A DNA stretch of 32,476 nucleotides from a virus, in the IMG/VR virus record IMGVR_UViG_3300036800_000053, positions 1 through 32,476 of that record. The stretch is one strand, 5' to 3'. A program made the translations under genes and the position numbers. Positions 22,641 through 26,690 of the stretch are shown piece by piece (position 1 is the stretch's first letter; each line of letters starts with the position of its first letter). A model generated the notes under the pieces. It was given only the letters and a program-made list of their open reading frames with translations. It ran no database searches and was not told the origin of the DNA.

Positions 22641-22667
22641 GAGAGAGGGATTGAACGTCCCTCTCTC
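22641..22667. terminator. Bidirectional terminator between converging genes
   Basis: A perfect 10-bp stem (GAGAGAGGGA / TCCCTCTCTC) with loop TTGAACG lies between the end of the plus-strand late operon (22614) and the end of the minus-strand gene (22670). Downstream T-richness is modest in both directions (AGTTATTTC on plus, TTTGTTG on minus), so it probably serves both strands. Confidence 0.82.
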
Positions 22668-22669
22668 AG

Positions 22670-22933
22670 TTATTTCTCTCCCAGCAGCTCTTGCCTCAAT
22701 ATGATGCGAGCTGCTTCAGCTACTTTATAAGCAAAAGTTGTCTTATTATCTTCCATCCAATCTTTTATCTCACGTGCAACCTGAGCATCTGGTGTTGCCA
22801 TGTGAAGATCAACTTCCGTGCTTGCCTGTACACGTGCAGAGGTTCGATTGATGTAATTCTCAATCATGATGCGCCTTCTATCGTTCTCTATCTCTTGCGC
22901 AACATGATCTACGATATCGTGTATGTTATCCAT
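22670..22933 (-). CDS. Small helical hypothetical protein
   Basis: The start at 22933 is supported by AAGGGAG 5 bases upstream; an in-frame ATG at 22990 has no such site. The 87-residue, highly charged, mostly helical protein (VAQEIENDRRRIMIENYINR, REIKDWMEDNKTTFAYKVAEAARIILRQELL) has no membrane segment or cysteine. A TATACT -10-like box at 22984-22979 on the minus strand lies 46 bases upstream. The expected -35 position falls inside the inserted inverted-repeat element. Function is unrecognised. Confidence 0.7.
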   Translation of the reverse strand: MDNIHDIVDHVAQEIENDRRRIMIENYINRTSARVQASTEVDLHMATPDAQVAREIKDWMEDNKTTFAYKVAEAARIILRQELLGEK

Positions 22934-22993
22934 TATTCTCCCTTGCTTTCTTCTCAACAGATTGATAATTGCAGCACAAGTATAGCACAAAGA

Positions 22994-23262
22994 GAGGTAC
23001 CCCTAAGATCCGTGCAATTTTGTGCAGTAAAGCAATTTGTTATATTGGTGAGCTTAGCAGATATCCCAAGAAGTCTCTGGGCAAAGTTTGTGCCCTTGAC
23101 AGCACGCACGAAAAGTATGCTAAAACAGTCTAATGCACTGCAACTAATGGGATTTGGCCGCAATCTCTATCAGCAGATCGACATCTTTTTGACCAGAAAG
23201 TTGGCATTTTTAGAACAAACGTGCGCTAATGCACATTTTTACAAGGATCTTAGGGGTACCTC
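22994..23262. mobile_element. 269-bp miniature inverted-repeat element, Tn3-type features
   Basis: The ends are perfect 18-bp inverted repeats starting GAGGTACCCCTAAGATCC (22994-23011, and reversed at 23245-23262). Similarity continues inward: 32 of the first 40 bases match between the two ends. AAAGA directly flanks both ends (22989-22993 and 23263-23267), a 5-bp target duplication. A ~38-40-bp terminal repeat beginning G-x-GGTACC, an inner GTGCA-TTA block and a 5-bp duplication are features of Tn3-family elements and their transposase-less derivatives (TIMEs). The inside carries no credible gene. It sits in the divergent promoter region between the minus gene at 22670 and the plus gene at 23359. 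Confidence 0.8.
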
Positions 23263-23285
23263 AAAGAGGGCTCTACAAAAAGGCA

Positions 23286-23314
23286 TTGATACGCATGAGT
23301 TCATCAGCTATACT
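23286..23314 (+). promoter_or_regulatory. Promoter of second holin-like gene
   Basis: TTGATA (23286-23291), 17 bases, TATACT (23309-23314); five of six bases match consensus in each box. It lies 45 bases upstream of the ATG at 23359 and just outside the inverted-repeat element. The same decamer core TATACTTGTG occurs on the minus strand at 22984-22975, ahead of the opposing gene. Confidence 0.65.
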
Positions 23315-23358
23315 TGTGGTAGATATATTTACTATACATGAGCTTGTCAGGAGGAGAC

Positions 23359-23784
23359 ATGGACAATCCGCTTATTTTGCCGTCAATTGTCATTGGTTTA
23401 TCGTATATTGTCCTAGGTGTGTTGTTATTCTTTTGTGCTAAAATGTTTCTCGCATCCTCAGAACGCAAGCTGAACATTCTCAAGACAAGTACGTCTATTG
23501 CAGCTATCTCTGTTGATCAGAGGTATCCTCAAGAGCATCCTGAGCAGAGGAAAAAGAGGATTGCTATTCTGACGGTGGCTATCCTGAAAGAGCTGAATCA
23601 CCCCGTAGAGGAGCACTTCACTATAGATGCACTCATAGACTCATCTATACGCAACATTGACACTGAGGCGAGTCTTGTGGCAATTCGGATGAGTGAGATG
23701 CCAACGGATGAGATGAGGCTGCAGAACACGCCTGTGTTGGGCATGAGGCAAAGATCGAAGAGTGGCATGAGAAGCTTGCATTAG
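23359..23784 (+). CDS. Second LL-H-type holin-like protein
   Basis: The ATG at 23359 follows AGGAGG with 4-base spacing and is preferred over an in-frame ATG at 23338. The 141-residue product has one N-terminal membrane segment (LPSIVIGLSYIVLGVLLFFCA). Its soluble part recalls the LL-H holin at 21138: 'EQRKKRIAILTVAILKELNHPVE' against 'AEKKQMAMNTITGFFKAFNLPLP', then IDALIDSSIRNID against LSSFIEAAVNAL. The C-terminal 40 residues are Met/Arg-rich. It is the only plus-strand gene to the right of the late operon and has its own promoter. Holin, antiholin or superinfection-type membrane role is inferred. Confidence 0.65.
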   Translation: MDNPLILPSIVIGLSYIVLGVLLFFCAKMFLASSERKLNILKTSTSIAAISVDQRYPQEHPEQRKKRIAILTVAILKELNHPVEEHFTIDALIDSSIRNIDTEASLVAIRMSEMPTDEMRLQNTPVLGMRQRSKSGMRSLH

Positions 23785-26131: not shown

Positions 26132-26265
26132 GTTCGATAAGATAGCCCCTTGCGGGGGACCGTTTTGTGTCGGATACGGACAAACCCCTCTGGTTTCCCA
26201 GGTAATGGTAGCCTTGACGATGTTAGAAAGCGGTTTGTTTGTCAGCAGCACTGGCACTAACCCTC

Positions 26266-26280
26266 GTAAACCTGTTTAAC
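26266..26280. promoter_or_regulatory. Operator-like palindrome, copy 2
   Basis: GTAAACCTGTTTAAC is the reverse-orientation partner of 25779-25793; read on the minus strand it is GTTAAACAGGTTTAC, 13 of 15 identical. The two copies bracket the RHH regulator gene and its leader. Confidence 0.5.
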
Positions 26281-26426
26281 CACTGACCGTAGAGCATCGG
26301 ACTGGCTATCGCATCCTATGGTACCTATGTATTCGCCTCTAACGTAGCCCGATAGCTACCGAAGTAGCCCTGGCTGGGTCTGGTCAGGTGAAGCTAGAGA
26401 GAAGACGGGCAGAAACCACCCCATCT

Positions 26427-26690
26427 CTACAAGCCCATCCCCTTTAGGGGATCGGGTCCCTGACCCTCATCCAGGAAATTGTCGATACTCATTTGAAGAC
26501 CGTCAAATGAGGAACATGAGATTTGTCCAGCACCTCTTTCATGCTCATCATCCGCGTTTCGACCCCAAAGAACAATCTCGCCGTCTTCAGCTTGATTTTG
26601 CAGCATGCCGAACACGTTGCCTGTGACTGCGTGGTAGTAGACCTCATTGCGGTCTAAATCGGTGATGTCCCAGAAAGTAACTTGTTTCAT
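26427..26690 (-). CDS. Small hypothetical protein
   Basis: This 87-residue protein lies behind a perfect promoter (26757-26729) with GAAGGAG before the ATG. The N-terminus (KQVTFWDITDLDRNEVYYHAVTGNVFGML) looks like a beta-beta-alpha fold, then EDGEIVLWGRNADDEHERG and a final helix (SSFDGLQMSIDNFLDEG). A stem of ATCCCC/GGGGAT with flanking CCC/GGG (26434-26456) lies within the last codons. No domain was recognised. The tidy promoter suggests constitutive or early expression. Confidence 0.7.
   Translation of the reverse strand: MKQVTFWDITDLDRNEVYYHAVTGNVFGMLQNQAEDGEIVLWGRNADDEHERGAGQISCSSFDGLQMSIDNFLDEGQGPDPLKGMGL

Follow-up and report, generated by a model that had tools for sequence, protein, structure and literature searches.

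The 269-bp segment at positions 22994-23262 of the analysed viral DNA (the window, i.e. the whole 32,476-nucleotide stretch of record IMGVR_UViG_3300036800_000053) is almost certainly a non-autonomous mini-transposon of the TIME/MITE kind, made up of the two ends of a Ktedonobacteria Tn3-family transposon whose interior has been mostly lost. This reading is founded on the character of the ends, the 5-bp duplication, a sister copy inserted elsewhere in a related phage, the absence of a transposase from the phage records and the presence of larger Tn3 relatives in probable hosts. The segment lies between two phage genes with an AAAGA direct repeat at either border, and is organized as follows:

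22989-22993: left target-site duplication AAAGA, 5 bp, read from the sequence as an exact match to 23263-23267
22994-23034, + strand: left terminal inverted repeat, 41 nt (GAGGTACCCCTAAGATCC...GCAGTAAAG), from inverted-repeat search and homology to transposon ends
23035-23221: core, no gene supported; ~74% identity with the sister-copy core
23222-23262, - strand: right terminal inverted repeat, with GTGCATTAGCGCAC.TTTGTTCTAA common to chromosomal mini-elements
23263-23267: right target-site duplication AAAGA, exact repeat of the left copy

Perfect 18-bp inverted ends, a length of 269 bp, the lack of a gene and AAAGA at both borders had been noticed in a sequence-only reading of this DNA and were all confirmed by reading the sequence. 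The arms (22994-23034 and 23222-23262) are 80% complementary over 41 nt with the outermost 18 nt perfect, a tool-derived value equal to the end similarity of 32/40 counted earlier. They represent the longest perfect inverted repeat of the window with arms at most 600 bases apart, as well as the only inverted repeat of the window flanked by a direct repeat of at least 5 bases. The longest perfect arm in 60 Markov-simulated windows was 15, and arms of at least 12 together with a repeat of at least 5 occurred in none of them (0/60). Open reading frames crossing the element (one of 216 aa and a few short ones) disregard its borders, and none is supported as a gene. The Tn3 transposase domain PF01526 was detected neither in the window record, which is a partial genome, nor in the record of the sister phage.

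The exact 18-mer of the element end matched one other viral record, IMGVR_UViG_3300037153_000557 (55 kb), the major capsid protein of which shares 79% identity with that of the window phage. The sister copy carried by this record is 268 bp long, 80% identical to the window element and oppositely oriented. It separates the gene of the decoration protein from that of the capsid protein and is bordered by TAGGA on either side (...GGTACTAGGA-[element]-TAGGAGGGATTAGATTATG). Because the break of the sister contig falls within the element, its left border was read at the contig end and its right border at the contig start. The corresponding place is present in the window phage:

1043-1059, + strand: empty site matching the sister insertion, in the gap between the decoration and capsid genes

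No insert occurs at this place in the window phage, in the related phage L043 or in about 30 other relatives. The sister copy represents another insertion, having a duplication and an empty site of its own, and the comparison with related phages that had been suggested as a check thus turned out in favor of a mobile element: a related copy stands at another site, with its own 5-bp duplication, where relatives are empty. The two copies share 90-95% identity in the outer 40 bp versus 74% inside, a pattern that selection of the ends for transposase binding would produce. Ahead of the full copy at the start of the sister contig lie 78 bp of foreign DNA (L004 1-78), which matched nothing in anything searched and may represent sequence bordering a third insertion (...CTCCTGATA joined to GAGGTACC).

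Searches for exact partners of the ends gave the same phage only. The identical first 18 bp (GAGGTACCCC ends) were found in none of the bacterial genome contigs and, among viral contigs, in the sister phage alone; both 10-bp ends at 255-284 bp from each other, or the degenerate end pattern described below, likewise retrieved only the sister phage from viral contigs. The element matched none of the annotated phages and plasmids, neither the genome contigs nor the viral contigs yielded an intact autonomous partner ending in the identical GAGGTACCCC, and an intact cognate TnpA was not found in the genomes searched. The 14-mer GGTACCCCTAAGAT occurred in 30 stretches of viral contigs, which, apart from the sister phage, look like chance occurrences without a partner arm and were rejected; these chance matches perhaps often encode Gly-Thr-Pro-Lys-Ile.

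The surroundings of the insertion comprise the following features:

22673-22933, - strand: leftward gene of the cassette, 87 aa, matching no family; relatives have another gene in this slot
22977-22982, - strand: possible -10 box (TGC-TATACT) for the leftward gene, at a distance of 11 bp from the left border of the insert, proposed by sequence reading
23286-23314, + strand: promoter-like site TTGATA-N17-TATACT facing rightward, 23 bp from the right border of the insert, from the promoter scan
23359-23784, + strand: rightward gene, 141 aa, unknown function, with homologues of 96% (L040) and 53% (L041) identity

The proposal that the element is inserted in a promoter region stands in part: the insert is placed just upstream of the possible leftward -10, and the rightward promoter-like site is left intact beside it. 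The latter is largely conserved in the relatives L040 and L041, and this conservation is its support, the number of sites returned by the promoter scan being no higher than in shuffles. The possible -10 at 22977-22982 was not picked up by the promoter scan, and a good -35 for the leftward TGC-TATACT is absent, by reading, in the present as well as in the reconstructed upstream DNA; the leftward genes of L040 and L041 have their own TTGACA-N17 promoter-like site. The element might influence the leftward gene. The insert is flanked by a perfect 12-bp inverted repeat, CACAAGTATAGC / GCTATACTTGTG, at 22975-22986 and 23307-23318, which holds both TATACT boxes; without the insert, its copies would stand 46 bp from each other.

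The slot delimited by the late-operon terminator and the conserved rightward promoter (window 22641-23286; L040 3932-4906; L041 4026-4908) contains a different leftward gene in each related phage, which places the element at the edge of an exchangeable cassette. Relatives lacking the element carry another leftward gene at the position of 22989 and hence offer no exact empty site for the window insertion, and no relatives of the leftward gene 22673-22933 were found in viral contigs. A genuine mini-element might therefore have been brought in at the edge of a cassette by recombination, instead of being inserted in this phage, an origin that would explain why homology to L040 and L041 stops at the right border (about window 23264-23267) and why the left gene differs between relatives. 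We consider this quite unlikely, since the exact AAAGA duplication and the right flank AAGAGGGCTC, which is also present in L040, make both borders look like one clean insertion, and since cassette exchange occurs at this very place in relatives that have no element.

Elsewhere in the window, a full-length HEARO RNA (RF02033, the class that provides IscB/IsrB nucleases with guide RNAs) was identified at 26202-26464 on the - strand (115 bits, E 2e-23). No ORF of IscB/IsrB length is located near it; the phage apparently carries this omega RNA on its own.

The origin of the ends was traced through the probable hosts. Thermosporothrix hazakensis ATCC BAA-1881 encodes a relative of the capsid protein with 43% identity (L076), providing a host link, and its genome, G009, searched with the element, gave two end matches facing each other at a distance of 4.5 kb. 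Two larger transposons with homologous ends were delimited:

L084 3002-7568: T. hazakensis (G009) transposon, 4,567 bp, AAATT duplicated outside, inverted-repeat identity 30/38
L166 4804-11245: transposon of genome G042, 6,442 bp, AAGAG duplicated outside, ends near-identical

Adjoining the left end of the G009 transposon is a decayed TnpA represented by three PF01526 pieces (best E 4.5e-34) together with a piece of a resolvase. The closest class transposase to these TnpA pieces (66% identity) is that of the G042 transposon, whose ends show one difference only in the first 53 bases and whose tnpA (DUF4158 and PF01526, E 5e-133) is interrupted by an IS630-like insertion; this transposon also encloses a serine resolvase (PF00239, E 2e-44) and an APH-like gene. 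Both transposons resemble the element in the 5-bp duplication and in ends homologous to ~55 bp, and differ from it by carrying a tnpA, broken in both, a resolvase or a piece of one, and passenger genes. The likeness of the left end of the element to transposon ends extends to ~55 bp (...CAATTTGTTATATTG), with 91% identity to G009 over element positions 10-55 and 100% identity to G042 over positions 35-53, and past the 38-bp repeat all three have AAA(G)CAATTTGTTATATT in common; in the first 38 bp, 22 to 30 positions of the larger transposon ends are identical to the left end of the phage element. In place of the full Tn3-type transposon with the same ends that the sequence-only reading had proposed to look for, G042 and G009 gave larger transposons with homologous, not identical, ends bounding a broken Tn3 transposase gene and a resolvase or a piece of one. 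Some apparent transposase matches near solo ends were discarded, since the query ORFs that gave them are probably not transposases. As a positive control, the finder of inverted ends with a duplication recovered the Tn3 elements in L153, L165 and L173, which have GGGG or GGCC starts and 5-bp duplications; their ends are not those of the phage element.

A mini-element of a non-Tn3 transposase family that also generates 5-bp duplications, with a fortuitous likeness to Tn3, would be in line with ends that begin with GAGG, GGGG being common in Tn3, and with the failure to find an exact autonomous partner in genome and viral contigs. This explanation is largely refuted and very improbable, as homologous ends bound two segments with Tn3 transposase, resolvase and 5-bp duplications, and as the likeness to these ends runs to ~55 bp. 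The kinship found is with the GAGG(N5)CTAAGATCC end family of Ktedonobacteria and not with the Tn4430-type ends suggested earlier, the GGGGTACC start of which would resemble GAGGTACC.

The distribution of related ends follows the class of T. hazakensis, which we take to be the Ktedonobacteria. The element had matches in 9 of the 47 genomes of this class (best E 2e-12), mostly at the element ends. Among 400 genomes sampled from the host phylum, which included most of these, one further genome gave a single interior match (E 0.002), and 392 genomes of another phylum gave five matches, all of them interior and all with E >1e-3, so that outside the class related ends appear to be not above chance. 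The degenerate end pattern GAGG(N5)CTAAGATCCT..C.A...TGTGCA, allowing up to 3 mismatches, detected 47 ends in 10/47 class genomes versus 0 with the reversed pattern as control. The chromosomes of the host class also harbor mini-elements of 220-250 bp whose ends belong to this family (L105, L106, L108/L109, L110, L211 and L212). None of these has recognisable target duplications, which we read as the result of age or of recombination between copies; a TIME without bordering direct repeats has also been reported (PMC4133298). Several truncated ends of the host class (L117 2796, L153 2030, L118 4446, L201 7439, L202 7909 and L203 8055) continue into GTAACTGTTCAG, its variants or its complement, which gives the impression that a further repeat or insertion element was joined to these ends or made use of them.

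That the segment is a functional regulatory RNA, terminator hairpin or operator array of the phage rather than a mobile element has practically no probability, and is refuted as its primary nature by the second insertion site: the strong folding (z -5.1) is a consequence of the arms, and neither the site between divergent genes nor the terminator-like hairpins at 23221-23235 on both strands outweigh the lack of an Rfam match in 22989-23267, a core that is the least conserved part between the copies, a sister copy elsewhere in opposite orientation with its own target duplication, and relatives that have the same rightward promoter without the element.

By the features tested, the element is a TIME; the kind is known, and the lineage and the phage setting are new. 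An autonomous Tn3-family transposon would contain tnpA and a resolvase or res site, and no such gene is inside the 269 bp. TIMEs are short (about 200-300 bp) and devoid of a transposase gene, as is the 269-bp element, and have terminal repeats of ~38 bp homologous to Tn3-family ends, which are found here in two transposons with Tn3 TnpA. Their duplications of 5 bp (or 6 bp) correspond to AAAGA in the window, TAGGA in the sister phage and AAATT and AAGAG in the larger transposons, and mobility is evident from two phages, two sites and the empty site for the sister copy. The idea of a Tn3-type, transposase-free element in a phage is hence supported by homology, beyond resemblance.

TIME1-4 of Pseudomonas (PMC4133298) are alike in size (262 versus 269 bp), in imperfect terminal repeats of ~38 bp, in having no gene, in 5-bp duplications and in sharing their ends with a Tn3-family transposon. 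Their ends are of the Tn5044/Tn5563a type and they reside on plasmids or chromosomes, whereas the present element has GAGG(N5)CTAAGATCC ends of Ktedonobacteria and is found on phage contigs. TIME244 / IS101 and the TIME-COMPs (PMC13367494) are likewise Tn3-derived mini-elements, and one TIME-COMP has been described in putative phage-plasmids (PMC13367494). TIME-COMPs bound resistance genes, in contrast to the single cargo-free element described here in phages of another bacterial phylum. A literature search for Tn3 elements in Ktedonobacteria found no paper, and the lineage of the element is apparently undescribed.

Mobilisation in trans by a host transposon, as the sequence-only reading had proposed, is the simplest reading given that no Tn3 transposase was detected in the window and sister phage records. 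Most likely, a host Tn3 transposase would have acted on the element at a time when the temperate phage resided in its host. The host TnpA would bind the ~38-bp ends of the mini-element, which would then be inserted into AAAGA of the phage by replicative transposition, most likely in the prophage or during infection, and the cointegrate would be resolved after insertion. Replicative transposition followed by cointegrate resolution is characteristic of the Tn3 family. The sister phage and the relative G802 encode a tyrosine integrase, so that the window and sister phages are probably temperate, and the prophage state would offer the opportunity for insertion; the same opportunity has been suggested for transposases in temperate phages generally (PMC8136500). 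The 262-bp TIMEs, which have ends of 38 bp and duplicate 5 or 6 bp of the target, are able to transpose, and trans activation is not rare, Tn3-family elements included (PMC4133298). The element would now be a passive passenger of a temperate phage, which might carry it to new hosts. The occurrence of two divergent copies in two related phages, along with no exact-end copy in the bacterial genomes scanned, could also indicate that the GAGGTACCCC lineage is phage-adapted, persisting and spreading mainly in temperate Ktedonobacteria phages by means of host Tn3 transposases and moving Tn3 ends between hosts, a suggestion that we regard as doubtful.

A passage of PMC8136500 credits Leclercq and Cordaux 2011 with the view that transposable elements are rare in phages. 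The survey in PMC8136500 looked for transposase genes, and gene-less elements would thus escape it. Two insertions, located at separate sites of related and probably temperate phages and having ends traced to a Tn3 lineage of the probable host, point to an action of host transposons on phage genomes and to phages as possible carriers of Tn3 ends. Moreover, the element serves as a host marker, pointing to Ktedonobacteria, for phages that have only distant relatives in the annotated phage collection.
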